Source: Plumapathes pennacea
Lineage: Eukaryota > Cnidaria > Anthozoa > Antipatharia > Myriopathidae
NCBI GenBank assembly: GCA_964036295.1
Contig: OZ038466.1
Location: 1,984,001-2,048,000, forward strand
Length of the DNA: 64,000 nucleotides
Reading direction: 5' to 3'
The position numbers were made by a program, and so were the translations under genes. Under the pieces are notes generated by a model, which did not search any database, had not been told where the DNA came from, and saw only the letters and a list, made by a program, of their open reading frames with translations. Numbering within the stretch: position 1 is the first letter of the stretch; every line of letters starts with the position of its first letter. Of this stretch, positions 34,788 through 56,841 are shown in pieces.

Positions 34788-34818
<31 letters not shown>

Positions 34819-36217: not shown

Positions 36218-37299
36218 TCTTCAGAGAAGTAGGATTGTCCCCCAACGCAACTGAAAAGAATCACCAAGTTTGGTTCCCCGGCGCCATGACTGCTCCTCCG
36301 CGCACGTGTATTATGCCAGATGCGCATATGTACCAGAAAAACAACCGCTGACTTTTTCCGCTTCGCCCCCAGGACCCTCCGCGTGAAGGGAGTGGCCTGG
36401 CACTGATGCGTTTATTATAAGTCGCAGAATCGCAGGGTGCGGGCGATTTCAGGATGATACCTCATAAACGGCTAAAGCAAAATAAGACAATGCATTGCAA
36501 AAATTCTTGTTATAGTCAAAGGAAGATTTCGTAAAAGTTTCAACAGTTTTAAATTTTTCGTCAAAATCCGCCATTTTGGAGATTAAAAGCATAGACCATC
36601 TATATAAAATTGCGCTGAGCCACTTCCGTCCGTACGTCCGTGACGCTTTTTCTCAGGCATCCTCATCATAAAAACTATCTAATGGACGCCAAATCGAGTG
36701 AAACTAAGTATAAATATTGGCCTCGTATGCGAGCCAGTTTTAGAAATCGGAAATGAGCTTAAAAAGAGAATTTCTGTTGTAAGGTGACCGGATGTCAGGC
36801 TGATGCTGCCGCATGTTAAAAAAACGAGATTTTGATGTCGATCGATCGGCAATTCGTCAAGTGGTATTGTCTGAGTATTACCCAGACCCCCCGGGCCAGA
36901 TTCATTGGTCGGGTCTGAGGAAAGTCATTTTTTACATTACATGCATTCGCCTTTTTGTTATAATCATACCGAGTTTGGTCCATAAATCGCAGAATGATAC
37001 GTTTTGGAGCTTAATTCAACAGCAGGAAATTTTGCATAGAACCTCGTTAACTAATGATTTGCAATTTTAAAAGCGATACCGTCACACTTCCGCACTCAAC
37101 TTAGAGCATAATACTTTCTTTTTCGGTAGTTACACGAATCAAAATTTTTTGCAACAACGTGTAATGCAGCGTCATTGCGAAAAAAGTTTTATAAGAAATG
37201 CATGCAACATTCCTATAGCGCAACTTGTCTCGCAACAAAAATTGTGAGATAAGATTAGCCAGGAAAGTACAACTCTTTTAAAAATTCTACGATGGGGCC
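36218..37299. other. Intergenic region between TOM70 and SABATH copy 1
   Basis: Holds the TOM70 promoter side and the 3' flank of SABATH copy 1. No coding exon, RNA gene or clear transposon was recognised. Confidence 0.5.
36303..36308. promoter_or_regulatory. CACGTG E-box upstream of TOM70
   Basis: Canonical E-box about 86 bases upstream of the TOM70 start codon, close to the spacing seen before the APP-like gene. Promoter use is inferred. Confidence 0.35.
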
Positions 37300-37336: not shown

Positions 37337-40300
37337 TTATTTCTTCTTCTCTATCACTACAAATGCGTGAATATAATCTAGTGCGTGGTCTGCTGGGTTC
37401 TTCGCCACTTCCTTTTCGAAACGACCGTAAAACTCGTTCACAATCTTCGTCTTCTCTTCGGGTGAGCGAGAGTCTGATAACCCTAAAATATGAAAATAAC
37501 AAAACTTTCAACAAACTGAAATAACCTCTGTCCTCCGAAGGCAACAGCACATGGGAGAGCAACCACAGTAAGTAGCGAAAATATCGCAATATCTTGTCGA
37601 CACTGATGTACCTGAAGTCAATGGCTGTGCAATTTTATCAACAACTTGTCTTGAAATGTTTGACAATGGACCGTTAAGATGTTTCACTGTGCAACGCGAT
37701 CTCAGAAACGTGCAACGATTTATGCCGAAAAAGTAGAACTGCATGGCCAATTATATTTCGTGCAACGTTGCGCGCAACAACAACAAATTACAAGACAAGT
37801 TACTCAAGTACCCTGTTGCACAGTGTAATATTTCAGCCACTTGTCTTGCAACGGTGCAACAGGGACTCTTTATTGTCGTTTCTAATTTGTGCACAATGAC
37901 CGCAAACCAAAAACTATGGTGATCGCTGACTCATTTCCGAGGTGCTCACCTGACTTGAAGGTGCTGGTACTCCAGCTTCTCAGTGTCCCAACGTACCACT
38001 TGGCATGCGCCTGTGGGTCTCCTCCGTCCTTCATCCACTTCTCGTGGTAAGGGCACCGCACTAACTTGGTTTCCGCGGAAACCAGGGACAGGCCTGCTTT
38101 TCGAACTGGAGAATCTTCAGACTCAAATGGTTTGCTAAATTGCTTCACCGTCCTGTAGTAGTTCTGGAGAGTCGTCCTGTGAAATTCGTCCTGTTGTCGG
38201 AATGGGATAACCATATCTTTTAAAACGTCTTTTCGTCGGAAATGTTCTTGCAGAAAACCCAATTAAGTTTTCTTAAAAAACGGAGGGAGGATGGAAGGGA
38301 AGCATAGAGAGAACAACTGAAAGAAAAAAAGAAGGAAGGAAAAAGGAGAAAGTGGAGTCTCGTACAACTGTAAACACACACACCTGTGTAATGGATCCAT
38401 CATCCACCATCCCTTTCCATAAGTCTCTCATCATGTGGTGCGTAGATACCTTCGCGTTCTCAGTATTTCCTAAGTATCGCCCTTTATCATCAATTGCACA
38501 CGTCGTCACGACCATTGCACCACCTGACAAGTAAACAAACAAACAAACAAACAAACAAACAGATAACACATGACAAAACTTACCAGGACCATTCCACCCT
38601 TAAACAAATCACAAATAGACACGTGACCAAGTGACGTCACTAGTCACCACTCACTCACGGTATGTCTTAAGCGAAGAAACGAGAACGGAATACCTGGAGC
38701 TAATTCTTCAGCCCTCTTTAGCAGTATAGTCTCCCAGTCTCTCTCGGCCTGCTCCCTGAATTTCTCAGCCTCATCTGGATCAGTGATCAATGCACTCTGC
38801 ACTGCGCCCGTAATATGACACGGCATCTTGCTCAAAAATTGCATTGCTGTACCAGAAAATCCCAACTTGACGGAGCCGGACGGGAGGCACTGACTGTAGA
38901 AATTCGTTCCACAAGCCGTCACGAACACGTTGGGAAAGTCCAGATAGTAACTTTTGGGACCAGGAATGAGACCTTATGGAAACAAAAATATACTGTACTT
39001 GTTAATTTCCATTCAGTTTAAACGTTTTGTTCTTCGTTTTGTTCTCATTTCTTAAATACCTTGTAGACGAAGAAACAGCGCCTTGAAGTCATTCACCGGT
39101 TGATCTTCATACGACACATGGATTGGCAACTTGGGCCCATAGGTCTTCCTCAGTTCTTGCACGACCGTGTAGAATAGCGGCATAGATGTCCCACCATCAG
39201 CGCACCCATAGTCCATTATAGTGAAGACCTCTTCAGGTTTGACGTCCATAGACTTGATACACTTCATAACAAGAGGCACACACACTTGAATGGCACTGTA
39301 ACAACCCATGGTGTTGTCGGAGTAGTACCCAGACCCCTCCTGGCCAGCTTCCATGGGGCTGTGTGGGGTCTGAGAAAATGAATTATTATTATTCGGTTCG
39401 GTATACGGAAATCTATCGACGCAGAAGCAGTGAAGAAAGGGTCATGTAATGAGATAAAGAATTGTTTTGATATAAGAGGAATATAACCCCTTTTGACTTT
39501 TTTTAAATATATTTTAAGGACAAAATGCCTCTCCCTGCGGGCAGAATACTCCTCTAGTTGGGCTCCACAAATACAAAAAAAAAAAAAAAAAAAAAACTCC
39601 GATATTTCAGCGAAGGAACAATTACCAGACGGAACAAAACCAAACAGTTCAGTCGGCGGAAGACGAACAATCACCACGAACGGCCAGTTCCGAGGACAGG
39701 CTGATCACCAACACGAGGGGACAAGTCGCGGGAGGATATTTCCTCTCGTGCGCCCCAACCTTATACTCTCGCGTGAAACGTGATTTAAATTAATAGACTC
39801 CAATACGTCACGCCAGTGCATAGCCTCGCAGTATTTGCATTCTCTGCAACTTGGCAGGGGAGAGACGCAGTTTGTCGCATTCTTCGCGCTAGTTCCTTCA
39901 ACATTATGTTTCGAGTAGTTTGCATATATAAACAAATATCTCAGAGCTTATGCAATCTGCAAAGTTGAAACATTGAATTTTGTGATAACAAAGCCGTGTG
40001 TCACGCTCTTCGCTGACCTATTGAATTTGAATTTTGTTCTCCTTTATATAAAGAAGCAAAGAATCAAACCAAGGCCCGGTTCGACTTTTATAGTTCGTGT
40101 TGCACGCCATGTTGGCGTACTAATAAAAGCCGCATACAAAACATACGAACACCAACTATAACCGAGCAATATTAATACGGAATATTAAAGAATTCATGGA
40201 AGATGACGGCAAATAAAGATCTGACAAGTTCCTTGCATAAACGAGGAAACCTGTAGTATCAGGCTAATTTTTCCCCGAAACGAGTCCCTTCGCACTTTCT

Positions 40301-40873
40301 GGGGTCTCAGTTTTCGAGACCTCGGGCCATATAAAAGGCCAGCCAAATGATTGCGAAATTACCGCATTGTCTGACCTACTCAAATTTATGCAATCCGCAA
40401 ACCTGCCAATACATTCAAAGCTGTGTGTCCACGTTCTTCGCTGACTGGCTGAATTGAATGTTTATATTCTAAAATGGATGGCAAGGTATTAACACAGAAT
40501 CAAACCTTGGCCCAATTCAGCAAGCTGCAAAAATCTCGACCCCTCGCAGTATCAAATATTCTCAGATATCCAAACGCAGTCAACTGTCCAAAATTTGGCC
40601 CAGTGATGCCATATCGTTATGTTTACCGAGTCGAAAAGTCAAACTATGCTTAAATGTGATGATCTACACCGAAATCTGGCGATGCATGACCGTGCAATCC
40701 ACCGATATAATCAAGAGAAATCCTGATTGTGTCATGAAGGAACGAGCGGAACTGATACACAAGTACTGCACTGTACTCGAGCGAACCAAACTCGCCTGAA
40801 ATCATTATTTGCTGCTTTCTAACTATTGCATCCAGTTTTATACAGTACTCACGTATGTTTGAGCTCCAGACAT
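37337..40873 (-). CDS. SABATH-type carboxyl methyltransferase, copy 1 (variant active-site motif)
   Basis: Predicted S-adenosylmethionine-dependent methyltransferase acting on small-molecule carboxyl groups; substrate unknown. Coding exons, 5' to 3': 40853-40873, 39060-39369, 38694-38972, 38384-38523, 37950-38190, 37337-37482; 1137 nt, 378 aa. The first exon is only 21 nt (MSGAQTY), then TPHSPMEAG. Visible: GSGYYS near residue 20 (cofactor and substrate pocket), DYGCADGGTSMP near 60 (glycine-rich SAM motif), YEDQPVNDFKALF near 94 (the plant NDxPxNDFN counterpart), ETILLKRAEELAP, and the C-terminal SPEEKTKIV segment. At the family's LxWLSxxP motif (residue 156, Trp in copies 2-4) this copy reads MQFLSKMP. 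In plant salicylate methyltransferase the matching Trp contacts the substrate carboxylate. It shares strand and exon plan with copies 3 and 4, and its promoter abuts the element at 40944-41319. Confidence 0.88.
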
Positions 40874-40943
40874 CACGACGATTGCACGAGTTCTCGTGTT
40901 CTATTGCCTTGATCCCAGGCCTTCCAAGTGAGAACCGACTTAA

Positions 40944-41319
40944 CCTCGGTTCAGACCCCGCTCCTGACATGCGCCGAATCTAATAGTAATAGATTCGACC
41001 CTGGTTCGACATAGGAGCGACTGTTGATTCAAACGTCGAACTTTTCCTGCCGCACCAAATACACAGTAGTGCTTATGTTTAAGGATACATGTTTTTAATT
41101 CAAAATAATTTAAAATAATTCATGATATAGGTACGGCACATGTGAAGAGCGGCGTCTGAATTAACGGTCGGATTATGCGACAGCGTCAGTCGAACCTAAT
41201 ACTGCTGCCGTACCTAATTCAAATATGCCGAACCTAATTGATTCAGACGCCGCTCTTCTGCCGTACTTAATTCAAGCATTAGGTTCGGCGCATGTCAGGA
41301 GCGGCGTCTGAACCGGGCC
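40944..41319. mobile_element. Inverted-repeat element flanked by TTAA (piggyBac-like MITE)
   Basis: The ends pair as inverted repeats: left CCTCGGTTCAGACC..GCTCCTGACATGCGCCGAA, right read inward GGCCCGGTTCAGACGCCGCTCC and on. TTAA lies directly outside both ends (40940-40943 and 41320-41323), the target duplication typical of piggyBac. The interior contains smaller inverted copies of the GAGCGGCGTCTGAA and GCCGTACCTAATTCAA segments but no ORF. It begins 70 bases upstream of the first exon of SABATH copy 1, so it overlies that promoter. Its ends resemble those of the family at 3847-3984. Confidence 0.75.
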
Positions 41320-41439
41320 TTAAGGTCTTCAGGTTTTGCTTTCATTTTGGGAGATTTTTAACCTGTTTTGAGGTTCACAAACATAGTCGTTGAAGCTCAT
41401 TGAATATGCGCGCCGCATGTGATTTGTCTTTAAAAATTA

Positions 41440-42370
41440 ACGGGAAAAACTAAACAGGAAAAAACAGACAGGAAAAAGTGCAGTACAGCAATATTCCGGC
41501 TGTCTTGTGTGATCTAGTGATCAGTTCAGTATACTCAGTGTGAAGTTAGTGAATAAAATGATAATGAAGCTGACAAACTTCAGCTGACGCAAGAAAAGTA
41601 TAATCTTGTTAAACACCATCGGACTTCCTACGCGCGATGAAATAAACTTGACAGACTGCAAGACTTAGGGACAGGACGAACTAATGAAAAAAAAAAAGGT
41701 TTTTTGAAATGACCACCAAACTTACCAACTGCGCCAGAAGATGCGAGCACAATTAAGGCAAGTCTGCCGTATTTTTGTTATGTTTTCAACACCAGAAAAC
41801 ATTCCTTAGGTAAGTCAAAGACCGTAGCAATAAGCTCCCGTTATTTCAGAAATTGCTTCCTTTAACAAAGGGTATATTAGGATATAAGTGACTTTTTGCG
41901 GTTTGTGTGCTACAGTATACGCACGTCAACAAACTGCGAAAGACCTGCAAACAGCACGTTCGCGAACTGTACTGTCAACATACTCATACAGTCATATCTC
42001 AGATTAAAATTAACACCTTCAAGGGCGTTTTCAAGAACACGAGAGCAACTTCATGAAAAAGCAATACACGCCTCGTTTATCATAAGGACAGTTATTAACA
42101 TCGAAAATCGTTTGATGTTATAAACATACTGAATAGCTTCTATAATAAGTACAACAATAAGTTTGGCATGCATAAATACTGCACAAGATTTTGATCCAAC
42201 AACATTTCTTTTTTGCAAATTTACCGCAGCTTTGAAATATAATTTTCATTTCCAAACCCTCGCTATTTCGCTGGCTTTGAAAAGAAGATTGACTCCTGGA
42301 AAAAAGCCGATCTTTTCCCGCTAATTGCGTTCCAATGGCATTACTCAAGGCACACCATACGAGAGGAGGC
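41440..42370. repeat. Inverted copy of the 1-640 block with a Ly6 signal-exon remnant
   Basis: Matches the left edge of the window in reverse orientation. On the minus strand, about 41726-41773, a hydrophobic stretch (KYGRLALIVLASSGAV) is followed by a good donor (GTAAGT). It resembles the signal-peptide exon of the Ly6 gene at 43.0 kb, but no ATG precedes it (in-frame TAA two codons upstream) and no downstream Ly6 exon follows. It is read as the relic of a further Ly6 duplicate. Confidence 0.6.
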
Positions 42371-42392
42371 ATGAACAATTTTAAATTGGCAG

Positions 42393-42398
42393 TTTATT
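42393..42398 (-). terminator. AATAAA polyadenylation signal of the Ly6 gene
   Basis: AATAAA on the minus strand, about 190 bases beyond the Ly6 stop codon. Confidence 0.5.
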
Positions 42399-42587
42399 CA
42401 AAAGCATAAAACACGCGCCTAGCTTACACTTGACACGTTATGGAACCCGGTCTCAGCTACATTCAATCGAAACGCTTGGGAGTCAGTAAAAAAAAAAAAT
42501 GTATGACAGTCAAAATGCAAAACTAATCAAATCAAAGTTGGACTAATTCAACAACTTGTCCGAGCTCATCTCGCTGGCTTGGGTTTC

Positions 42588-43040
42588 TCACTTGAAGAAC
42601 GGGAACACAGCGAACAGGGAGCACAGAGAGACGAGTAAGACGCTGAAGGTCGGGGCGGCTCCAGAGTTACACAGATCAGTATCACAACAGCCAACTGCAC
42701 AATCATCCAGATCACCTTTCTCTTTAGCTGTTTCGCAAAATGCAGCTGTAAGTTTACATTGGCCTTCGGTGCCACAGCCCCTGTTTACCATCTCGGTACC
42801 GCTCTTGTCCTTGGACCAGCTTCTGAAGCAGCGGTCCGCACCAGAAGGGCAGGTCGTTGTATTATCATTGCTGCTACCGCAGTTTTCGCATTGATAGCAC
42901 TTCAGAGACAGAGCTACAATGAAGACCAAGATCGCAACAATCAGTTCCCGAGTTTAACTAAGTAATAAAAGGAGAAGTTAGGAAAACTTACCGACTGCGA
43001 AAGATCCGAGCAAAATCACGGAAATCAGGACGAACTTTAT
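42588..43040 (-). CDS. Ly6/uPAR-domain protein, predicted GPI-anchored; start codon uncertain
   Basis: Two exons. Exon 1 (from about 43040 to 42992) encodes a signal peptide core, KFVLISVILLGSFAV. A short intron follows, and exon 2 (42588-42913) encodes LSLKCYQCENCGSS, then CFRSW, RGCGTEGQC, and the diagnostic CCDTDLCN. Last comes a hydrophobic tail (FSVLLVSLCSLFAVFPFF) typical of a GPI-anchor signal. The spacing of the cysteines fits one three-finger Ly6/uPAR domain. Such proteins are secreted or cell-surface and often bind receptors or other surface proteins; the partner is unknown. The codon where ATG is expected (43038-43040) reads ATA, and no in-frame ATG lies upstream in the exon, so translation may fail, start at a near-cognate codon, or use another first exon. 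It sits between SABATH copies 1 and 2. Confidence 0.75.
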
Positions 43041-43104
43041 CTTGAAGAGAAGCAGTCTTCGTCTATTAAAGTCACTGCCGTCAGTGCTTCATTTTATGTC
43101 TGTC

Positions 43105-43112
43105 CTTTTATT
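43105..43112 (-). promoter_or_regulatory. TATA-like element of the Ly6 gene
   Basis: CAATAAAAGG on the minus strand, about 65 bases upstream of the expected start codon. This position suits a TATA box for a short 5' UTR. Confidence 0.4.
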
Positions 43113-43312
43113 GAGGATGAAAACTAGCCAATTACAAAGCGAGAAACTGAAGTGTTATGTTTACACCCATTGTAGCACGTACTGAGCATAATGACGTCGT
43201 GCGCATGACATATTGCCGCATTCAATTGGCCAGAATACGTCAAGTGAGGAATCCGGACAAACGTTTCCGGTCGTCTAAAATCGTGTCTCTGGTGCTTTTA
43301 TTGTCGTCGTGC

Positions 43313-43363
43313 GCATGTACATATGGCCGCGTTCAATAATTGAACGCGGCCATATGCACATGC
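43313..43363. repeat. 51-bp palindrome between Ly6 and SABATH copy 2
   Basis: Arms of 25 bases (including CATATGGCCGCGTTCAAT) surround a single central A at 43338, with one mismatch. It is flanked by two direct copies of CGTTTCCGGTCGTCTAAAAT at about 43263 and 43424. The arrangement looks like a small foldback element or the junction of an inverted duplication. Confidence 0.8.
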
Positions 43364-43689
43364 ACGTGAAGTATTGTGGCCAATTATTGGCGACAGTACT
43401 TCACGTGAGGAAGCTGGACAGACGTTTCCGGTCGTCTAAAATCGTATCTTTGGAGCATTTAGTGTGCTGCCTTTTTCGTCGGCAGCAACAATGAAGTTTG
43501 CCATGCATAAATACTGCACAAGATTCTGATCACTGGGATAAGTCCCCAATCCCACAACATTTCTCTTTGCATATTTACCTTCGCCTCGAAATATAGTTTT
43601 CATTTCCAAACCCTCGCTTTTTCTCTATTTACAAAGAACAAGGTTTGCCCCGAAAAAAGCCTGGGTACGAGGATGCCGTAGTTAGGAAA

Positions 43690-44232
43690 CAGCAGACAGG
43701 TGATCTGTAGCGAGTTTTGCGGCCCGACCTTGTTTAGGTCCTTAAATTCGTCTTGGAGGTTATTCTCTCTTATGAGAGAGCGCTCTTCTGAAATCCTCCC
43801 GAAAAGAGAAAATTCCCTTCATGCTCCCCGTATCGAATTTTACGATCACTTGCTGCGACCTCTCGTGAGGGTCACTTTATGTGACATGATGAGCTTAGGT
43901 TACCTGGATACCGTCGGACATGCACAGTGGAGCGATTGTTCACGCGGAAGGCCCTGTGTTCGTGGTAACCCGATTGCAACTCCCTTCGACTTCATCGAGG
44001 AACTCGCGCCACCGTCGTGATGTGTGCAGCTCAAACCTACGTGAGTAACTGAAAGAAACTGTGTACAGTAGTTAGAAAGCAGCAGATAGGTGATCTGAAG
44101 CGAGTTTGGTGGCCCGACCTCCAAACCTCCGTCTTCCTTAAATTTCGTCTGGGAGGTTATTCTCTCTCATGAGCGGAGAGCGCTCTTCTGAAATCTTTCC
44201 GAAAGAGAAAATTCCCTTCATGCTCCTCTCAG
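43690..44232. repeat. Direct repeats flanking exon 1 of SABATH copy 2
   Basis: A segment of about 145 bases (with GGTGATCTG.AGCGAGTTT, GGAGGTTATTCTCTCT, AGCGCTCTTCTGAAATC and GAGAAAATTCCCTTCATGCTC) occurs at 43690-43835 and again at 44085-44232. The 21-nt first coding exon lies between them, so one copy is in the promoter and one in intron 1. Confidence 0.8.
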
Positions 44233-47200
44233 TAGTTAGCAGCAGATTGAGGCGAGCTTTGTTCGCTGAGGTGCATGCTCGTTTTATAGTCACACACAGT
44301 CGTGCATCGCTAGATTTACTTGTAGATCATTACATTTAGCCATGCTTTGACTTTTCGAATCGGTAAACTTAACGAAAATGCATCACTGCGGACCAAATTT
44401 TAGAACATATGACTGCGTTATACAATATCTGAGGACATTTGATACTGAGCTTTGCATGCAGTTTTATATTAGTTCAGCAACATGCATGAATGCCTTTCAT
44501 TTGCGGCATGAACTAAAGCTGATTTTGGGTCTCAGTCTGATTCTGTCCATCCACTTTAAAGGAGTTACAAAGCAACACTGGCCGAATTTATACCACGTAC
44601 AAATTATCCATCAAAATTAGACTCCGTGTTTAAACATGGTGACTGACTCGTCTAGATGGAGATCTGATCTCTAATGCAAATTTCAAACGTCCCGACAGAA
44701 GCTTCGCATCTACCCATAAATTAACGCGGTGAAGGCTTCTCTCGTAACGAGCGCGTCTCTTGCCCAGTGTCAATCGTCCATTCTTTTGGAATACATGTCA
44801 TTCATTAATTGAAACAAAGCTTTTTGGTTTTCGTTAAATAAAATTATCATGTAGTATTTTACCTCGCGTTTATGAAAAAAAAAAATGTGAATACATATTG
44901 CCTCCGCGCACTTTACTTCCCCACCCTATTTTTAAAAACGCTTTTACCAAGGCGCAAGGACTGGTAAAGAAAGCTCTCTCCCTCCTTCCCCACCCTACCC
45001 CCACCCCCTCCCCCCCCCCCCCCCCCCCCCTGCGTCCTATTCCGAGCCAAAACAGCTGTTTATACCTCCAGAAATCTGGAAGATTTTGTCACAACCCTTC
45101 GGTTTTCAAGCTCACTGCATGTTCATAATTGATAAAACGAATATCTATTACCCCTGATGTTCTCAGAGTAAACTTGTCGGTGTTACAGTTTCCACAGATC
45201 CCTCACAGCCCTATGGAATCTGGCCCGGATGGGTCTGGGTACTACAGTAATAAGACCTTGGGAACGTACCCTATTATGGAAATATGCAAACCCGTGCTTC
45301 TAAAGTATATCAAGTCTATTGACGTCAAGCCTGGTGAGGTATTCACTATAATGGACTATGGGTGCGCTGATGGCGGGACATCTATGCCGCTATTCTACGC
45401 ATGCGTACAGGAACTGAGGAAGATCTATGGGCCCAAGTTGCCAATCCACGTGACGTATGAAGATCAACCGGTGAATGACTTCAAGGCACTGTTTCTATTT
45501 CTGCAAGGTTAGTTTCTGTGCACAATGTCCATTACAGCAATCTGTGATTTCTGAATTTTGTGCATGATAACGTTGGTATCTAATCTATCTAAAGTTTAGA
45601 CAATTGTCAGGTCGAGTTTAATGTGTTGAATTTCTTCTCTTCCTTCTTCTAATTTTATTAGTTTCTACTGTCTGACAAAGAGTGATCCGATCTGGTCTAA
45701 ATTTGAACCGTTTTCTTACCATCACCCATTCAGTTGTATAATAGACGTAGAACACAAGTATCGTTTCAATAGCTACGAGAATTATTTCGTTTTGTTTCCA
45801 TAAGGTCTCATTCCTGGTCCCAAAAGTTACTATCTGGACTTCCCCAACGTGTTCGTGACGGCTTGTGGAACGAATTTCTTCAGTCAGTGCGTCCCGTCTG
45901 GTACCGTCAAGTTGGGCTTTTCTTGTACAGCATTGCACTGGTTGAGCAGGATACCGTGTCACATCACAGGCGCAATTCATCATACAATGATCTCTGATCC
46001 AGAAGAAGCTGAGAAATTCAGGGAGCAGGCCGAGAAAGACTGGGAGACCATTCTACTGAAGAGAGCTGAAGAGTTAGCTACAGGTACCAAACATTCGTTC
46101 GTGACCCCCTAAATAAGACCAACCCAGCCTTCTGTTCGGACAAACCGTGAGGAAATAGTGACACGACGCTCGTCATTTGTTGACTTGTTTATTTGTTGAC
46201 TTGTTTAGGGGGTGCAATGATCCTGGCGACGTGTGCGACTGATGATGAAGGACAATTCCTTGGAAATACCAAGAACTCCAAGGTGTCGGCTCTCCGGTTG
46301 ATGGGCGACTTCTGGAAAGGGATGGTGGATGATGGTTCCATTACACAGGTATGTGTATTTACAGTTGTACGAGACTTCCATTATTCGCATTCCCTCTCCT
46401 CTGCCTCCTCCCTTCCTTTCATCCTCTCTCCTTGTTCTTCCTTCTCTCTGCTTCCCTTCCATCCTTTTCCGTAATCTATTGAAAACTTTGATTTTCTTGC
46501 AAGAACATTTCCAGTATATTTCATAACAAACGATGCACATTACCCCATTCCACAACAGGACGAATTCCACAGGACTAATATCCAGAACTACTACAGAACT
46601 GTGAAAGAATTTAAGAAACCATTTGAGTCTGAAGATTCGCCAGTTCGCAAGGTAGGTCTGTCCCTGGTTTCCATAGAAACCAAGTTAGTGCGGTGCCCTT
46701 TCCACGAGAAGTGGATGAAGGACGGAGGAGACCCAAAGGCGCATGCCAAGTGGTACGTTGGGACATTTAGGAGCTGGAGTACCAACATATTCAAGTCAGG
46801 TCAGTGTCACGGAAATATGTCAGTGATAAACTTACTTTTTGTTCAATTTTTTTTTATAGTTTGCCGTTGCCAGACAAGTTCCTGAAGAAGTATAACAGGC
46901 GGCACCTTAGCACATTGTCTCGCATTCTTTATTTTGTTGCGCACAACGTTGCAATACTTTTCCCAATGATTGCATCAATTTCAATCGTCGTTCCACAGTT
47001 TAGCAACCCTCCCCCTCCCATAAACTTGTGTCGCAATTTTCCCGAGTGCGATTAGGAGCGCAACGGCTTTTGTTAGAATCGTTCAAATGTCGGCGCGCCA
47101 TGCAGTCACGAGTTCTCCCCAGCCTTTTTCGGCTTTGATCGTTGCAAGATGCTCGGATCGCGTTGCACAGTATAACATCTGAAAGATCCATTTTCAATTA

Positions 47201-47507
47201 TTGCAAGACCAGTTGCTGATAAAATTTCACATTGCAAACTGCACATTGTGGAGAAGCCGTATGAAGATATTGCGATATTTTCGTTACTCAGTTTTGGTTG
47301 GCCGATTTTAACTCATTTCAGTTCGTTAAAATTTGTTACATTTTTTCCTTTTTTTTTTCAGGGTTATCAGACTCTCGCTCACCCGAAGAGAAGACGAAAA
47401 TTGTTGAGGAGTATTTCCACCGCTTCGAAGAGGAAGTCGCCAAGAATCCAACAGACCATGCACTGGATTATGTGCACGCATTTGTAGTGATGGAAAAGAA
47501 TAAATAA
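44020..47507 (+). CDS. SABATH-type carboxyl methyltransferase, copy 2
   Basis: Predicted cytosolic SAM-dependent carboxyl methyltransferase; no signal peptide or membrane helix; substrate unknown. Coding exons: 44020-44040, 45198-45507, 45805-46083, 46209-46348, 46559-46799, 47362-47507; 1137 nt, 378 aa, typical of the family (about 350-390). Exon 1 is 21 nt (MCAAQTY). Visible: GSGYYS at 19-24; DYGCADGGTSMP near 60-71; YEDQPVNDFKALF near 94-106; GTNFFSQCVPSGTVKLGF leading to LHWLSRIP (Trp156), which aligns without gaps to the plant motif GSFYGRLFP...LMWLSQVP; GNTKNSKV; FESEDSPV; and C-terminal PEEKTKIVEEYFHRFEEEV. A methionine inside exon 2 (PHSPME) could be mistaken for the start, but all copies share exon 1, and copy 4 lacks that methionine. 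AATAAA follows at 47533-47538. Confidence 0.9.
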
Positions 47508-47532
47508 TCTGTTTGGGATTAAATTTACTCTA

Positions 47533-47538
47533 AATAAA
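47533..47538 (+). terminator. AATAAA polyadenylation signal of SABATH copy 2
   Basis: AATAAA 26 bases past the stop codon of SABATH copy 2. A fragment of the family A MITE end (GCCGAACTTCACATGCGTCG) begins right after it. Confidence 0.7.
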
Positions 47539-48203
47539 ACATTGCCGAACTTCACATGCGTCGTAGTTTTTAAGCTGTTTGTTAAGCTCTTAAACATTCA
47601 CTGTTTCAGTTGCTTTTACCCATCTTGCGCAACCTGACACAACCCATTACCCTTTAGAATCGTTCATCTGCTTTTACTAGGAGACCTCTGCACTCTTTGT
47701 TTCATTTACTCTCCTACTTTTTACAATTATTATTTACCTACTATTTACTCTCACGTATCGCTCTTCGGTTGCGATAAAAGCTGCACTTGAATACCACGAG
47801 CAGTGTTGTCCATTTCGTCCAGAGAAAGTTTACATTCGAATTACGACTGCTACATCCTGTCATAGAAGCTTGAATAATAAATTTAGCTCCCTGCCAAAGG
47901 AAAATCTTAACTTTTAGGGAAAACTCTTGACTTTTGACAAAAACTGAGAGGTAGTAACGTTTTTCGTAAAAAGCAGCATAAGCCTACCGAGTTACCAGGT
48001 GATCCGCTGACCAGACATCGCAGGCGGTTTACGCATGCGCACCATTATTGCAACCTGTCATTGGCACAAACTTTTAAAAAGGATACGTGATGAACCTAAC
48101 AGCCAATGAAGTTCATAAAGACCTGGCATGATGTGGGTATACCTCCCCATGTTCAGTACTAGTCTCTTCACGAGTCCTAACTTGTCGAACGGTGGAATAT
48201 TTG
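47539..48203. other. Spacer between convergent SABATH copies 2 and 3, left part
   Basis: The axis region of the inverted duplication. Apart from the MITE end fragment next to the polyadenylation signal, no gene or repeat was recognised. Confidence 0.45.
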
Positions 48204-48290
48204 GCCTGTTTCAAACGTCGAACTTCACATGCGTCGAATACAATGCAAAGGAGCAAAATCTCATATTGTATTCGACGCAATTGTGACTTT
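48204..48290. mobile_element. Short inverted-repeat element (MITE), family A, second copy
   Basis: The left end GCCTGTTTCAAACGTCGAAC continues to TCGAATACAAT, and the inverted TTGTATTCGACGCAATTG follows after about 35 bases. The right end is truncated or diverged compared with the copy at 3847-3984. It lies in the spacer between the two arms of the SABATH inverted duplication. Confidence 0.7.
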
Positions 48291-48544
48291 AAAATATGGA
48301 ACAGCAGAACACCCTACCACATCGAGGGATACACTCAGCTCATAACCATCACGGATGACCTTTTGTAAACAGTCCCTATTCCAGCACTGGACACATTTAT
48401 GCTACACAAAAGTATTTTAATGAAATCAACTTCAGTTTAAACTCACGCAAACGTCTACATGCACCAAAATAGTGAAGAACAGAAACAAATAAAACATCCC
48501 AAACAACGGATGGAGAGACCCATCCCATTACTCAGCAGAGCTCA

Positions 48545-48550
48545 TTTATT
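48545..48550 (-). terminator. AATAAA polyadenylation signal of SABATH copy 3
   Basis: AATAAA on the minus strand, 25 bases past the stop codon of SABATH copy 3, matching copy 2. Confidence 0.7.
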
Positions 48551-48575
48551 CAGAGTAGATTTAATCCTCAACAAA

Positions 48576-51525
48576 TTATTTGCTCTTCTCCATCACTACA
48601 AACGCGTGCACATAATCCAGTGCGTGGTCTGCTGGATTCTTGGCGACTTCCTCTTCGAAACGACGGAAATACTCTTCAACAATTTTCGTCTTCTCTTCGG
48701 GAGAGCGAGAGTCTGATAACCCTGAAAAAAATGGAAAAAATAAAAAGTTCAACAAACTAAATTAATAAGTTGAAATCGGCTCCTGCGCAGGTGCTTACGG
48801 GCAACAACAAAGAGGAGTGCAACCAAAATTAGCAAAAAAAAAAACCGATATCTTCTTGGCATTGATATACCTGCCACAATTTTCGTTTGAACGGTTCGCA
48901 CGAGCCGTGCGACGGTAAGAGCAGCAATTGCGATGTATTTTCGCGTTCTTCAGGAACTTGTCTTCCAACAGCGTTGCGATGAACCTCAGAAAATTGAACA
49001 AAAAGTAAGTTTATCACTGACATATTTCCGTGACACTGACCTGACTTGAATATGTTGGTACTCCAGCTTCTAAATGTCCCAACATACCACACGGCATGCG
49101 CCTGTGGGTCACCTCCGTCCTTCATCCACTTCTCGTGGTAAGGGCATCGTATTAACTTTATTTCTATGGAAACCAGGGACAGGCCTGCTTTGCGAACTGG
49201 CGAATCTTCAGACTCAAACGGTTTCTTAAATTCCTTCAGAGTTTTCCAGTAGTTCTGGATATTAGTCCTGTGGAGTTCGTCCTGTTGTGGCGAAATGGGG
49301 TAGTGAACTTTACAGCGCTGTTTGTTTCGAAACAAACTAGAAATGTTTTTGCAAGAAAATGAAGGTTTTCAATAGATTCCGGAAGAATGGAAGCGACGCA
49401 GAGAGAAAGAAGAACAAGGAGAGGATGAAAGAAAGAAAAGAGAGAGAGGAGAGGAGAGAAAGGGAGTACGAGTAATGGAAGTCTTGTACAACTGTAAATA
49501 CACACACCTGTGTAATGGTGCCATCATTCACCATGCCTTGCCATAACTCTCCCATGAAGCGAACCGCTGACACCTTGGCGTTCTTAGTATTTCCCATGAA
49601 TTGTCCTTCGTCATCAGTTGCAGAGGTCGTCAGGACCATTGCACCCCCTGAAGTAAACAAGTCAACAAATGACAAAATTGATTAGCGGTTTGTCCGAATA
49701 GAAGACTGAATCGGTCAAGGGGTTCACCACGAACGAATGTTTGATACCTGGAGCTAACTCCTCAGCCCTGTTCAGCAGTATGGTCTCCCAGTCTTTCTCG
49801 GCCTGCTCCTTGAATTTCTCAGCTTCTCCTGGTTCAGAGATATATTTTTGATGGACTGCGCCTGTGATGTCACACGGCAACCTGCTCAACCAGTGCATTG
49901 CCGTACAAGAAAAGCCCAACTTGATGGTACCAGACGGTACGCACTGACTGAAGAAATTCGTTCCACAAGCCGTCACGAACACGTTGGGGAAGTCCAGATA
50001 GTAACTTTTGTGACCAGGAATGAGACCTTATGGAAACAAAATAAATCATGGTAGCTGTTGAAACGCTTTGTGTTCTTCGTCGATTATACAGCTGTATGGG
50101 TGATGGTGGGTGAACGATTCAAATTTGGACCAGATCGGAGCCTTTTTTGTCAGGCAGTAGAAACTAATCAAATTGGGAGAAGGAGGAGAAGAAACTCAAC
50201 ACAGCAAATTCGACCTGACAATTCTAGATAGACAAAAAACCAACGTTATTAGGCATAAAATTCTGAAATCACAGATTGCTGTTTGTCAGCATTTTGTTTA
50301 GTGGACATTGTGCACAGAAACTAACCTTGCAGAAATAGAAACAGCGCCTTGAAGTCATTCACCGGTTGATCTTCGTACGTCACGTGGATTGGCAACTTGG
50401 GCCCATAGATCTTCCTTAGTTCCTGTACACATGCGTAGAGTAGCGGCATAGATGTCCCGCCATCAGCGCACCCATAGTCCATTATAGTGAATACCTCACC
50501 AGGCTTGACGTCAATAGACTTGATATACTTTAGAAGCACGGGTTTGCATATTTCCATAATAGGGTACGTTCCTAGCGTCTTATTAGTGTAGTACCCAGAC
50601 CCATCCGGGCCAGATTCCATAGGGCTGTGGGGGGTCTGGGGAATCAATTATGAACGCACAGAGATCTTTAAAAACGGATCGCGCTGAAGTCGCTACAGTG
50701 GCAAAAGAATACACACAGGAACAAGATACGTAAGTTTCAGCTTCATTATTGGCGTAAAACCCGAGTTCGCGAACGACAAAAGTCTCCCATACAAATCCTT
50801 ATAAAATCCAACCGTCTTGAAAATTGCGCAACGCAACGGGCATCTCATATCACATGAAACCTGTGGTAATGATGATAATGAGTGAGGCCTTCACGCAAAC
50901 CTCTGGGTAGATATGAAGCCTCTATCGGGACGTTGAAATTCGTGACTTTGGCCAAATTTGCATGGAGACGTGTAAATCCGTCTAGAGGAGTTTTCCAGTG
51001 TAAATTCGTCAGACGGATAAAACGTGAAGTCGAATTTGACGGATAATTTGCCCGTAGTATAAATTCGGCGAATGGAGCCCTTTAAAACGTAGCCAAAGAT
51101 TCAGACTGAGGCCCAACATCAGCTTTAGTTCGCGCCGCAAATGAAAGGCAGCCACGCATGTAAAACTGAAAAGATATCGTATAACGCAGTCATCTGTCCT
51201 AAAATTTGGCCCAGTGGCGCATTTTCCTTTCCTTATAATTACCGCTCGATAAGTCAAAGTATGGCTAAATGTAATGATCTAGAGATGCACCACCAGCAAA
51301 CGAAACAAACCAGCAACATATTAACCCAGAGAAATGCAAATTATGCATGAAGAAACAACCATGTATTGTATGCACAACCACTGCACTTTAACGAACCAAA
51401 CTCGCCTCTCAAACTCGACCCTCGACTCTTGCTTAACAAACTCGCTTCAGATCACCTCATTACTGTTTTCTAACTACTGTACACAGTTTTGTTCAGTTAC
51501 TCACGTAGGTTTGAGCTGCACACAT
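48576..51525 (-). CDS. SABATH-type carboxyl methyltransferase, copy 3
   Basis: Same predicted activity as copy 2, its closest relative. Coding exons, 5' to 3': 51505-51525, 50326-50635, 49748-50026, 49508-49647, 49041-49281, 48576-48721; 1137 nt, 378 aa, with exon lengths identical to copies 1 and 2. Exon 1 is MCAAQTY, then TPHSPMESG. The SAM motif DYGCADGGTSMP, the YEDQPVNDF segment and MHWLSRLP are intact. Differences from copy 2 are scattered substitutions (for instance LIPGHKSYY, DITGAVHQKY, DELHRTN) with no stop or frameshift, which suggests constraint rather than decay. A 192-bp hairpin-forming palindrome begins 37 bases upstream of the start codon, inside the expected promoter or 5' UTR. 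Confidence 0.9.
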
Positions 51526-51561
51526 CACGACGGTAGCACGCGTTCCTCAATGAAGTCAAGG

Positions 51562-51753
51562 TTGCGACTAAATACAGGAATCGCTCCTGGTTCTGATTGG
51601 TCCAACGAACAATAGACTTACCGAAGCCCGACCGATCACGCTTCCGAGAAATCGGAAAGTGTATCACTCGGAAACGTGATCGGTCGGGCTTCGGTAAGTC
51701 TATTGTTCGTTGGGCCAATCAGAACCGGGAGCGATTCCTGTATTTAGTCGCAA
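51562..51753. repeat. 192-bp palindrome at the promoter of SABATH copy 3
   Basis: Arms 51562-51648 and 51667-51753 (87 bases each) are reverse complements with about three mismatches; the loop is 18 bases (51649-51666). Arms contain TTCTGATTGG/CCAATCAGAA and CGATCACG segments. Transcribed, it would form a long hairpin. No equivalent is seen at the promoter of copy 2, so it was probably acquired, or lost there, after the duplication. The matching ORFs on both strands are by-products of the symmetry. Confidence 0.9.
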
Positions 51754-52726
51754 GTGCCCCAATTGGGGCTCATCGTGCCATATAAAGTGACCCTCACGCG
51801 TCACGCAGGAAATGACGGGCCGTCCGGGTCATGTGACCCGCCGCGTCACGCAGCAATGACGGTTGGATTCTGTGAGGGGAAATGTGTGGGAAATTCACTC
51901 GATCGCGAAAATCGAATATTACGGGAATAAACTTATACATACCTTGCTTGAGTGCGCTTTCCTTGCTACTGCAGCGATTTCATTCTCAACTCTTTTCCTT
52001 ATAAAAGAAGCGAGTCACGTCACAGGGTCATAGCCCTCGGCTGAGCTTGGGTGTGAAGGTCTGATGTATTGAATTCAGTTGTGGTAGAGCTCGTTCCAAA
52101 TTATTCACGGCTGTCGTGACTGAACATGATTGTGATGTTCCTCGTTAAACTGCGTGAATACATGAATAATTCAGTCTGCACCTCTCGCTATGGCAAAGGA
52201 ATCTTAATAGATATACGATATTTGCATATATTTCTTCGCCCAACAAGAATTTCAAATACTTTTTAACTGGGTAACTGTGCAACTTGAGAATCCTCAGAAA
52301 ATAAGACGGAGGCCAAAACGACCGAGATAAAAGTCGTTAATGTCCAGATGCCTCTCTCTTGATTCTCCCAGTGTTCACGAAGTTACTCCTTTCCTGGAAT
52401 TATCAGTTTCTTTTTGCGTATGACTTGCAGTCGAGTTTGCTCATAAACAGAAGTGCGTATTGCAAATATTAAAGGTGGTGTAAGTTCCGAGCAGTCATAA
52501 TGAATGGATGTTTACGCTGGAGCTAATTTGCTGAGTTCGGGTCAGGTGAAGTACGGCGTTAGACCCGGGCCTACCCTGCCAAAGTGAAACTCCTGCAGTC
52601 AAGTCTACGTTGACGGCGTTTCTTTTGTAAACGGTGCAGTCACATGCACTATATGCTGACCTTTTTAAGTTTAAATTCATGCACACGTCTACACCAGCAA
52701 AGTACACAAACAAACAATCTTTCTGA
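51754..52726. other. Gap between SABATH copy 3 promoter and the TIR transposon
   Basis: Starts with CATATAAAGTGACCCTCACG and two CGCGTCACGCAG-type repeats near 51805-51855, probably promoter-flank sequence shared in part with copy 2. The remainder shows no gene. Confidence 0.4.
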
Positions 52727-52735
52727 GTACATACG

Positions 52736-53664
52736 GGGTGTAAACAAAACCTGGGCCCAGCCCATGGGCTACCCTATGGGTCACCCTATGGGCTACCCAA
52801 AAATAAATAAAAATACTAAATAATAATAATTTAATAATTTATTAAAAGAGGCCATTTTTCTGTCTTAAGTGGTAGGGTTACTGCTGACCAATGACCGCTG
52901 ATTGAAAACTGACGGTAGAGAAATGTATTTCGTGGTGTCAGACGTACCACTGCTAATTTAATAAATCACTATCTGCTGGCCTGCTCCACGAGTTCAGATA
53001 TACAAAAGTACTTTTCGAGGGAGAAAATAGAAGGAAGGGGTTGCGCAAGGATATAATCTGTTGGTGATGACTGAAGAACTCCAGAAACAAGTAAAAAAAA
53101 AGACGGAGGAGTGGGAGTGAGACGAATGAAAGGACAGTTTGCCTCCTTCCCATTCTGAGTGTTTGATTCCCTTCCCCACCGTTATGACACTGACAGTTTA
53201 ACAACGAACTCTATGGGAGATTCTCATCGGCACTTCCCGGAATATGAGAGGCGCACATTTAGTTGCGTGTTCTCCTGCGGGATGTCACGTTGATCGCTTT
53301 GTGACGCAACCTTGGCAGCGGTGGCCAAAGGCTTTACCGTCCCCTCCCCACCCTACGATGAATTTTTTCAGCTCGCAGCTCGCTGGGCGTCCAAGGAGGG
53401 AAGAAAGGAAGGAAGAAAGGAAATAAATGGCTGGTGATTTATTGCGACTGCTGATGTTGGCCTCCCCCACCCAATAAGAAATGAAAATAGAAATAAGAGA
53501 GTCTTCTGAAATGGCTAGAAGTGCATTTTTCAAATGGCGACTTAAAAATGGCCTCTTTTAATGGATTATTAATTATTAATATTATTAATTATATTAGTTA
53601 ATTTTTATTATTTATTATTTTTATTTATTTTTTGGGTAGCCCATAGGAGGTTTTGTTTACACCC
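52736..53664. mobile_element. 929-bp non-autonomous DNA transposon with long TIRs and 9-bp TSD
   Basis: The left end GGGTGTAAACAAAACCT is repeated inverted at the right end, and similarity continues about 110-120 bases inward to TTAAAAGAGGCCATTTTT on both sides. The left arm has an extra tandem ATGGGCTACCCTATGGGTCACCC segment. GTACATACG is present directly outside both ends (52727-52735 and 53665-53673), a 9-bp target-site duplication. Long TIRs with a 9-bp duplication fit the Mutator-like (MULE) superfamily; this is inference, since no transposase is encoded. It lies just downstream of SABATH copy 4. Confidence 0.8.
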
Positions 53665-56600
53665 GTACATACGGGAGCTGGCCCATTGTTTCGATACTTG
53701 ATAAATTTTTTTTTCTTCTCCACCACTAAGTATGCGTGCACATAATCCATTCCATGGTCTGTTGGATTTTGAGATACTTCATCTTCGTAACGTCGGAAAA
53801 ATTCGTCGACAATCTTTGTCTTTTCTTCGGTTGAGCGAGAGTCTGATAATCCTAAAAATATAAGTAATAGATCGAAAAAAAAAAAAAAACATTGATGCGT
53901 TTGAAATAAGTTCGATATTGGAGTAAACTCCTTTGATCGCAGTGTCCAACGGTCGAGAAAAGTGAACATTTTAATTTTATTTAAATATTGTGAGAACAGT
54001 GCAACCTTCGGTAAGTCACTACCCTTGCTGTCTTGAAACCTTCGGGAAATCTTCCCGGAACTATGCCAAGCACAGTTGAATTCTTAGCTGAATAATAACC
54101 CTTCATAAGCCTTTCACTTTGTTTTGTTTTCACCTCAAATTTCATGTGTCAGTGTTGTAATGGAAAGACTGGCACCCAAAATTTAGAATGTCTTACCTGA
54201 AATGAACGTGCTGTTACTCCAGGTCCTCGTGGTTGGGATATACCACTGAGCATGCGCCTTGGGGTCGCCCCCGTCCTTCATCCACTTCTCATGGTAAGGG
54301 CATCGTACTGCTTTGGGCCTGCTTTGCAAACTGGCGAGTCTTCAGACTCGAATGGTTTCTTGAATTCCTTCACAGAGCAGTAGTAGTTCAGGAAAGTGGT
54401 CCTCTGGAATTCATCCTGTGATGGAATAAGGGATGGAAGGATGGGAGAGAGGAGGAAAGAGAGAAGGAAGGATGGGAGGGTGAGAGGAGGAGGAAGGAAG
54501 TGAATGAGGACGATTAGTTTAAATACACAGTTTAGCAACAACATTATATACTGTACCTGTGTAATAGAGCCATCCTCCACCATGCCTTTCCATATGTTGC
54601 ACATCTTGTGGTGCATTGACTCTTTGATGTTCTTAGTATTTCCTAAAAATTGTCCTTCATCATCAACTGCAAACTGTGCCAGGACCATTGCACCCTCTAA
54701 ACAAGTCAAATAAACAAGTAAACAATCAAGTCAACAAATCTACAAATCAACAAGGCAACAAGTCAAATCAAAAAATCAAAAAAAGCAAATCAACAAGTCA
54801 ATAAATCAAGAAGTCCACAAATCTACTAGTCAACAAGTCAACAAATCAACAAGTCAACAAATCAACAAATCAGCCAATAATAAACTGCACTAGGCCTGAT
54901 CCACCCCACTGAACAAAGTTAATATTAAACAAGTAAATAAATTACAAATTTGCTGAGCATGCAAGGGCATCTCATGATCACAAATTACCACTTTCTCACA
55001 GTGTGTCAAAAAATATCACTGTGAATAAGACTTACCACACATCCATCACTTACTTGTTGATTTGTAAATTTGTATCACTTAGTGTGATACATTTTGAAAA
55101 TGTTTACAAATAGCAAATAGTTTTGCCTGCTTTTTTCATGTTGCATCTGATGTTCAGATCATGTAGCATGTGACAGGTTACCATTGGGAAGTTGGAAGAA
55201 CATGAGAGTAGCAAAGGGAAACCACACAGCAATGTAGCAAACATATGAAATGACTCCAACACTGTCCCACTGAATGACTTGAATCACAAAAACAAATCAA
55301 ACAAAAAACAAAAAATAGACCAGCCATATTGGATCCAGGCCAACGGCTGAGATTACCTGGAGCTAACTCCTCAGCCCTGTTCAGCAGTATGGTCTCCCAG
55401 TCTCTCTCGGCCTGCTCCCTGAATTTCTCAGCTTCTCCTGGTTCTGTGATCATTGTATGATGCAATGCACCTGTGATGTTACATGGCTTCCTACTCAACC
55501 AATGCATAGCTGTAGCAGAAAAGCCCAACATGACGGAGCCAGATGGAACACACTGTTTGTAGAAACTCGTACCACAAGCTGTCACAAACACATTGGGGAA
55601 GTCCATATAGAAACTTTTAGGGCCTGGAATAAGTCCTTGAGGAAACAAAAATAGATTCAATAAATTTAGCCATGTTCAGTTCCCATGTGTTCTTCTAGCA
55701 ATTGAAAAGTTTGGTGTTCTTATTACACAGTTGAATATGAGAAAGAAAATTTAACTGCACGTAGTAAACATGAGATTGGGACGTAGTTCTTGACTTGTAA
55801 AATGTGATGCACAGTTTCAGATACTGTAGTCTCATACTAATCTCTATTATTTAGCAAATGGCTCCTAATCAGAGGAACCAACACTAAACAAGAAGAGTTT
55901 AGTATGGAGCAATTTGAAATTCAAAAGCCCATTCCCACTTAGCTGTTTAATGCACTAAAAAGTCACTTTTTGTGTTAAACTTCGTGTTGTCAGATAGGTC
56001 ATATATTCCAACCAACTGAATGAAATCAATCATTTCAGAAAAATATTTGTGACTTTCACTTTACTGTCCATAAATACCTTGTAGGCGAAGGAATAATGCT
56101 TTGAAATCATTCACTGGTTGATCTTCATATGTCATGTGGATTGCCAGTTCAGACCCATGGATCTTCCTCAATTCCTGCACACATGTATAGAATAGCGGCA
56201 TAGAAGTCCCACCATCAGCGCACCCATAGTCCACTATAGTGAATACCTGACCAAGCTTGATGTCAATAGACTTGATATGGTTCAAAACGAGGGGCATGCA
56301 CATTTGGATGACATTGTAGCAGCCGATGGTGTTGTCAGAGTAATATCCAGATCCATCCTGGCCATAAGGAATATGGCTGTGTGGGGTCTAAGAACAAGGA
56401 CACTAATGGGTTACTGTGAGACAAGAAATGGCTAAGATGCTGTGCAAAAATGTGTCTAAGTATATATTTTACACTTGATAAGCTCTTGATAAGGTATATT
56501 CTGGCAACGCAAAGGGTATGGTTTTGAAACATTTAGCTCTGAATTAGGGTGACCTGAGTGTTAAAGATTATTTGATAACCCTCATGATGATGTTACAAAT

Positions 56601-56841
56601 TGATCGGTTAACAAGATTATCAATCTTACTTTTTAAAGTAGAGAGCATTTGAATGTGAATCTTGGGGCAGCATCATAAGATGGCGGCACTTCAATCTGTC
56701 TCGAATTCGTTCGAAGTATTAAACGAAAACATGCCAAACACAAGGCCGAATAATTGATGTACAGAGAGCTGCGCTGCATTCTGGCTAACTATATCATTAG
56801 TCTGCTTTTAATATACTCACGTCTCTTTGAGCTGCGCACAT
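53625..56841 (-). pseudogene. SABATH-type carboxyl methyltransferase, copy 4, frameshifted
   Basis: Exons homologous to the other copies: 56821-56841 (MCAAQRD), 56078-56387, 55357-55635, 54557-54696, 54197-54415 and a last exon from 53851. The first four match the other copies in length and frame; DYGCADGGTSMP, YEDQPVNDF and MHWLSRKP are intact. Exon 5 is 219 nt instead of 241: a 22-bp deletion after KAG shifts the frame to a TGA at 54278-54280. The product would be about 295 aa without the C-terminal quarter. The old downstream frame (RCPYHEKWMKDGG) is still open, so decay looks recent. In the last exon the normal stop is AAA (53706-53708), and the frame runs on into the end of the adjacent transposon. 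Copy 4 lacks the methionine after PHS present in copies 1-3, which shows that the 21-nt exon supplies the start. Confidence 0.85.
54703..54880. repeat. Minisatellite next to the intron-3 acceptor of SABATH copy 4
   Basis: Many tandem copies of AACAAGTCAACAAATC-like units, on the plus strand, start 6 bases from exon 54557-54696. In transcript sense they read TTTGTTGACTTG. One or two units stand at the same place in copies 2 and 3, and a (TTTG)n run in copy 1. Confidence 0.85.

Follow-up and report, generated by a model that had tools for sequence, protein, structure and literature searches.

The 64,000-nucleotide window analysed here (positions 1,984,001–2,048,000, forward strand, of Plumapathes pennacea contig OZ038466.1; coordinates below are window positions) contains, between 37,337 and 56,841, an array of four loci whose predicted proteins match the Pfam family Methyltransf_7 (PF03492). 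With further copies dispersed elsewhere in this hexacoral genome, these tandem genes probably encode S-adenosylmethionine (SAM)-dependent carboxyl O-methyltransferases of a small, probably hydrophobic acid, a reading in which we have moderate confidence. Comparison with bacterial and plant members gives good support for placing the hexacoral family in a bacterial, "alphaproteobacterial-type" (alpha-type) branch of Methyltransf_7.

Structure of the gene array

The four loci lie on mixed strands and are modelled as follows.

Copy C1, 37337–40873, minus strand, intact: exons 40853–40873 (predicted), 39060–39369, 38694–38972, 38384–38523, 37950–38190 and 37337–37482 (including the stop codon)
Copy C2, 44020–47507, plus strand, intact: exons 44020–44040 (predicted), 45198–45507, 45805–46083, 46209–46348, 46559–46799 and 47362–47507
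Copy C3, 48576–51525, minus strand, intact: exons 51505–51525 (predicted), 50326–50635, 49748–50026, 49508–49647, 49041–49281 and 48576–48721
Copy C4, 53702–56841, minus strand, frame broken in exon 5: exons 56821–56841 (predicted), 56078–56387, 55357–55635, 54557–54696 and 54197–54415; last-exon homology at 53702–53851

The five main coding exons measure 310, 279, 140, 241 and 146 nucleotides in each of C1, C2 and C3, are bounded by AG acceptors and GT donors, and join into an intact frame of 371 residues per copy. A first exon of 21 nucleotides, followed each time by GTGAGT, is predicted 5′ of all four copies, which brings the number of exons to six; its peptide would read MSGAQTY in C1, MCAAQTY in C2 and C3, and MCAAQRD in C4. 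For C1–C3, this exon falls within upstream stretches alignable from copy to copy, and for C4, where it would start at position 56841, it is predicted from the peptide and the donor. The signal AATAAA, read directly from the sequence, is found 3′ of the stop codons of C1–C3. Exon 5 of C4 has 219 nucleotides instead of 241; the 22 missing nucleotides put it out of frame, and the copy appears to be either a pseudogene or an allele with a disrupted frame.

All four copies match Methyltransf_7 over most of the profile and far above the curated cut-off of 29.8 bits: C1 with 113.7 bits (E 1.3e-32), C2 with 131.4 (E 5.5e-38), C3 with 130.8 (E 8.6e-38), and C4, through its N-terminal 276 residues, with 103.7 (E 1.4e-29). 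No NCBIfam model matched C2, the one copy searched. An earlier note on this DNA had proposed the Methyltransf_7 search and described four like copies with a common six-exon plan and three shared motifs. The loci and the exon plan are confirmed by exon lengths and GT-AG junctions, with exon 1 as a prediction; the likeness of the copies holds for the intact frames of C1–C3 but not for C4. DYGCADGG and YEDQPVNDF are present in all four copies, but the third, LHWLS-type motif is confined to C2–C4 (as LHWLS or MHWLS) and is replaced by MQFLS in C1.

Selection, duplication and genomic distribution

The ratio of nonsynonymous to synonymous substitution rates (dN/dS) is low in all three pairs of intact copies (C1–C2, 0.351; C1–C3, 0.379; C2–C3, 0.284). 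On these values C1–C3 are under purifying selection and are therefore predicted to be working proteins. C2 and C3, arranged tail to tail, are the closest pair (dS 0.202, dN 0.057); their identity ranges from 0.829 in exon 4 to 0.965 in exon 2, and patchy gene conversion may have taken place between them. They would represent a recent pair, and C4 a decaying copy.

The window lies in a 26.5-Mb scaffold of a 290-Mb assembly of 24 contigs. Across this genome the family comprises seven loci, the four in the window and three located by a genome search.

Locus D: about 0.28 Mb from the array, on the same scaffold
Locus E and a near-identical copy: 18 kb apart, on another scaffold

In each of the three outside loci, the four introns compared, out of five, have the positions and phases seen in the window; these introns thus predate the duplications and the spread of the family. 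The local expansion in a cnidarian that had been proposed from the window is borne out, the host being of hexacoral type, and the family extends beyond the window.

Bacterial relatives

The best sequence match of C2 in the PDB is mycobacterial fatty acid O-methyltransferase (FAMT; entries 5f2k, 5f2n and 5f2o), with E 2.2e-27 for 5f2k; plant enzymes come at 5e-14 or worse. Among bacterial and archaeal genomes, the best matches, over residues 12–369, are two proteins of uncultured Alphaproteobacteria, L012 (39% identity, E 1e-76) and L013 (38%, E 2e-74), and a fragment from the same group (L014) is also 39% identical. Judging from the isolate names, we take the sources of these three to be marine single cells. 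Mycobacterial proteins are 26–36% identical to C2, mostly over shorter stretches. Wider searches yielded further alpha-type bacterial proteins with 34–40% identity to C2 over the full length, and one fragment with 41%. The alphaproteobacterial proteins (among them L012, L013, L055, L061, L076 and a Rhizobium protein described below) are uncharacterised, and no function was found for members of this branch. Unlike the hexacoral genes, they are intronless open frames, with one match per genome among the genomes listed as having a match.

Methyltransf_7 is thinly distributed in bacteria. In genome samples that overlap in part, it was found in 13 of the 385 genomes sampled from the class to which L013 belongs (including L053, which is not of alpha type and is 24% identical to the nearest hexacoral protein), in 4 of 398 of the phylum of L013 and in 4 of 149 of its order (three above the cut-off). 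The phyla of L015 and L042 gave 8 of 246 and 6 of 98, respectively, and the order of G387 gave 25 of 136 (23 above the cut-off). Relatives were present in three of 72,556 plasmid records, one at full length. The conjugative plasmid pCB3171_3 of Rhizobium sp. CB3171 carries one at 7989–9098 (L092; WP_283054904.1, annotated "SAM-dependent methyltransferase"; 40.5% identical to L012), which adjoins an FAD-binding oxidoreductase gene and has several transposase genes nearby. Two scans of viral contigs and a search of phage records gave no relative.

Leaving aside the methyltransferase gene and one cluster of five, which was taken for frames on its opposite strand, no neighbour cluster occurred in more than four loci across 14 bacterial neighbourhoods. 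Longer shared stretches were seen only within three locus pairs (L081/L085, L082/L083 and L084/L087). By eye, the neighbours of L084 presumably encode TRAP transporter parts, a gamma-glutamyltransferase and a hydroxyacid dehydrogenase.

Phylogeny and origin

Sixty bacterial loci were considered for the trees, and 59 gave a frame (none was obtained for L077). The main tree, of 39 rows in total, draws on 28 of them after removal of fragments and of near-identical mycobacterial sequences; a wider tree has 43 bacterial rows, 33 of them alpha-type, and a third has 28 bacterial rows (24 alpha-type and four FAMT). The eukaryotic rows are those of this genome and N-terminal segments, of about 260–280 residues, from five plant PDB entries. 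C4 entered all comparisons as its N-terminal 276 residues, L010, the second locus on its scaffold and a near-copy of L009, is in no tree, and the alpha-type label includes L067, which was assigned by phylum only.

In the 39-row tree the hexacoral proteins form one clade (support 100/100), and the six hexacoral rows group with 15 Pseudomonadota rows, mostly Alphaproteobacteria, again at 100/100; the mycobacterial and plant clades stand separate from this group. The joint clade is retained at 98/98 when three long rows are removed and at 100/99 with 33 alpha-type rows. Forcing the hexacoral proteins together with FAMT, which is of the same superfamily but forms a separate clade, costs 61.9 log units and is rejected by the approximately unbiased (AU) test (p-AU 5.6e-5). 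Forcing them together with plants costs 25.3 log units and is also rejected (p-AU 0.0136), a moderate rejection since the plants are represented by five rows, all of them partial PDB segments.

The order inside the joint clade varies between trees. The hexacoral proteins are nested among the bacteria at 80/63 or 74/49 in the smaller trees, and the bacteria form one clade at 42/3 in the tree with 43 bacterial rows or at 59/0 in the tree with 28. The AU test does not reject trees in which the hexacoral proteins are constrained to join one or the other bacterial group (p-AU 0.47 and 0.48). Because the nesting comes without firm support, gene transfer from a bacterium to the animal is rated as likely and no more, and the earlier note was right to keep both a transferred and a retained origin in view. 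Under transfer, the lineage would have acquired the gene from a bacterium in the distant past; introns would have been gained next, and the duplications would have followed.

Vertical inheritance is possible, although on the improbable side. Hexacorals would have preserved an old eukaryotic gene that many animals lost, or the Alphaproteobacteria would have taken theirs from eukaryotes; the affinity to Alphaproteobacteria suggests a variant in which the gene came from the mitochondrial ancestor. Such a history accords with the trees in which the bacteria form one clade, with the AU results for either bacterial group, and with introns older than the seven loci. It accords less well with the sparse bacterial distribution (13 of 385 and 4 of 398 genomes), though one order has 25 of 136, or with the copy among transposases on the conjugative Rhizobium plasmid; together these suggest a mobile gene more than a relic. 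The smaller trees also speak against it, weakly, by nesting the hexacoral proteins among bacteria, with plants as the other eukaryotic rows.

Conserved residues and predicted activity

Columns were compared in 87 rows: six hexacoral, 34 alpha-type, 35 of the FAMT clade, seven other bacterial and five plant. A three-residue insert ending in glycine is found in all six hexacoral and all 34 alpha-type rows. None of the 35 FAMT-clade rows has it, and letters occur at this position in one or two of the seven other bacterial rows. The plant rows have no letters there: four show a gap and continue past it, and the fifth ends before reaching it. Near the C-terminus, Trp316, His356 and Asp359 (C2 numbering) are present in 34, 33 and 34 of the 34 alpha-type rows, respectively, in 5, 5 and 4 of the five hexacoral rows with letters there (Asp359 is Glu in one), and in no FAMT-clade row. 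The hexacoral proteins thus go with the alpha-type branch by clade, insert and C-terminal Trp/His/Asp motif, fall outside the FAMT clade, and do not carry the Gln25/Trp151 pair of SAMT.

Asp57, Gly59, Asp98 and Phe130 of SAMT, which we take to be SAM-site residues, are kept in 5, 6, 6 and 6 of the six hexacoral rows. Since these positions are largely kept, methyl transfer from SAM to a small molecule is expected. The nearest characterised members, by sequence and for a fold model of L013, are FAMT and plant carboxyl methyltransferases, and for this reason the product would be a methyl ester formed on the carboxylate of a small acid. The position of FAMT Gln154, mutated in 5f2o according to its title, is His in five hexacoral rows and Gln in C1.

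Several observations weigh against this assignment. Gln25 and Trp151 of SAMT are, we assume, the residues that hold the carboxylate. Gln occupies the Gln25 position in 29 of 35 FAMT-clade rows (with five gaps and one Arg), in all seven other bacterial rows and in three of the five plant rows, but the position is changed in every alpha-type row (to Ala) and in every hexacoral row (to Thr, Cys, Asn or Val). Trp151 is kept in four of the six hexacoral rows; C1 has Phe there and locus E has Tyr, the residue of 31 of the 34 alpha-type rows. Every hexacoral row has Gln in place of Leu99 of SAMT, and three of the six have Asn in place of Ser129. As these four positions are changed, the pocket differs, and the substrate may be unlike either salicylate or a fatty acid. 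Of the C-terminal markers, Trp316 and Asp359 also turn up in 3 and 2 of the seven other bacterial rows, and His356 in none; the plant segments stop before this motif, which is therefore not judgeable in plants. Tree building raised warnings of long branches meeting and, for at least one tree, of an unusual amino-acid make-up of C1–C3, L012 and L013. Finally, the first PDB match of the L013 fold model, FAMT 5f2o (E 9.6e-22), gives mild support only, since the model is poor (mean pLDDT, the predicted local distance difference test score, 65.3) and its underlying alignment consists mostly of FAMTs, which biases the best match.

Methylation of nitrogen, as in caffeine-pathway members, or of some other non-carboxyl substrate is unlikely. 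The Gln25 position is changed in the N-methyltransferase rows 6lyi (Thr) and 8uzd (Ser) as well, which is in keeping with it, but the nearest characterised relative, both by sequence and for the bacterial fold model, is a carboxyl methyltransferase, and the Ala at this position sets the alpha-type rows apart from the N-methyltransferase ones.

Carboxyl methylation is thus the reading we prefer, and a more specific form of it, that the array supplies the last step of a cnidarian sesquiterpenoid route by converting farnesoic acid to methyl farnesoate with an enzyme of bacterial descent, is very doubtful. The array proteins are presumably of a different family from insect JHAMT. In the part of the source available to us, the cnidarian sesquiterpenoid pathway is taken to end at farnesoic acid (PMC9181382), for which reason this acid is a fair first candidate substrate and no more. 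Farnesoic acid is thought to be made by cnidarians and has been measured in two jellyfish, and JHAMT is present in amphioxus and echinoderms, according to the portions available of PMC9181382 and also of PMC10598428, PMC13137736 and PMC7305137. If the proposal were true, some hexacorals would make a juvenile-hormone-like methyl ester by means of an independently recruited methyltransferase.

Relation to plant enzymes and other known members

The earlier note had labelled the proteins plant-type SABATH enzymes and had named a tree outside their family as grounds for giving this up. The superfamily, Methyltransf_7, stands, but the plant subfamily does not, as the phylogeny groups the proteins with Pseudomonadota. 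A true plant-type SABATH gene, whether retained or taken up from a plant or algal symbiont, is most improbable, and a plant or algal origin was rejected on tree placement and the AU test with the five plant rows. Nothing in the results concerns the algal symbionts that the note had named as a possible target. The hexacoral proteins share the Pfam family with plant SABATH enzymes (SAMT 1m6e, LAMT 6c8r, GAMT 8wwq and the caffeine-pathway enzymes), as well as an HW-type motif common to plant rows such as LAMT. The plant enzymes are nevertheless less similar to them than FAMT or the alphaproteobacterial proteins, form a separate clade, lack the insert, and have Gln25 in three of five rows compared with none of the six hexacoral ones.

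Bacterial contamination of the assembly has a negligible probability and was rejected: the nearest relatives are bacterial, but the genes have GT-AG introns, lie in the 26.5-Mb scaffold, and have neighbours with amyloid-precursor and activin-receptor/Ly-6-like domains.

Genes of this kind in other cnidarian genomes may already sit in databases under plant-enzyme names. Among the matches listed in the open-licence literature (titles and beginnings of abstracts), none concerned such enzymes in animals, and the portions available of PMC11644291, PMC7762392, PMC9822479 and PMC3598815 contain nothing on them. In the sources consulted, the superfamily is described in plants, in mycobacteria (by PDB titles) and in one plant parasite, the rhizarian Plasmodiophora brassicae, whose BSMT is a SABATH-type SAM-dependent carboxyl methyltransferase reported, in the part of the paper available, to methylate salicylate (PMC8595600). 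This parasite is likewise a non-plant eukaryote with such an enzyme; the trees were built without its sequence. With exon models and a first candidate substrate now in hand, the hexacoral set, which is expanded, includes intact copies and appears to be under selection, offers a handle on the role of the bacterial branch and on possible cnidarian methyl-ester signals.

Neighbouring genes and other features

Between C1 and C2, an open frame on the minus strand (42588–42953) matches Activin_recp above the cut-off (E 1.7e-8), and CD59 and u-PAR/Ly-6 below theirs. Also between these copies, at 43313–43407, where their upstream stretches overlap in opposite directions, are two adjoining imperfect palindromes of 51 and 45 nucleotides, 94 and 89% self-complementary, which resemble a miniature inverted-repeat transposable element.

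Exons of an amyloid precursor protein homologue lie at 20368–24482 on the minus strand, with the APP_amyloid C-terminus at 20368–20769 (E 3.8e-18) and the copper-binding domain at 22946–23323 (E 1.6e-20). At about 30600–36220, also on the minus strand, are TPR exons and an N-terminal membrane segment; Pfam TPR matches were obtained in two of four pieces and none in the other two. We take this gene to be TOM70-like.

The 17,711-bp mitochondrial contig, with genes named by eye, has a nad5 intron containing nad1 and nad3, and a split cox1 between whose parts lies a frame resembling a homing endonuclease; its A+T content is 59.8%. In the part of PMC10261974 available, a nad5 arrangement of this kind is described in Actiniaria, Antipatharia and Zoanthidea, with A+T contents of 61.1% for Actiniaria, 60.5% for Antipatharia and 53.7% for Zoantharia. 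Because of the nad5 arrangement and an A+T content nearer to those of Actiniaria and Antipatharia than to that of Zoantharia, the contig is taken as fitting a sea anemone or black coral host.

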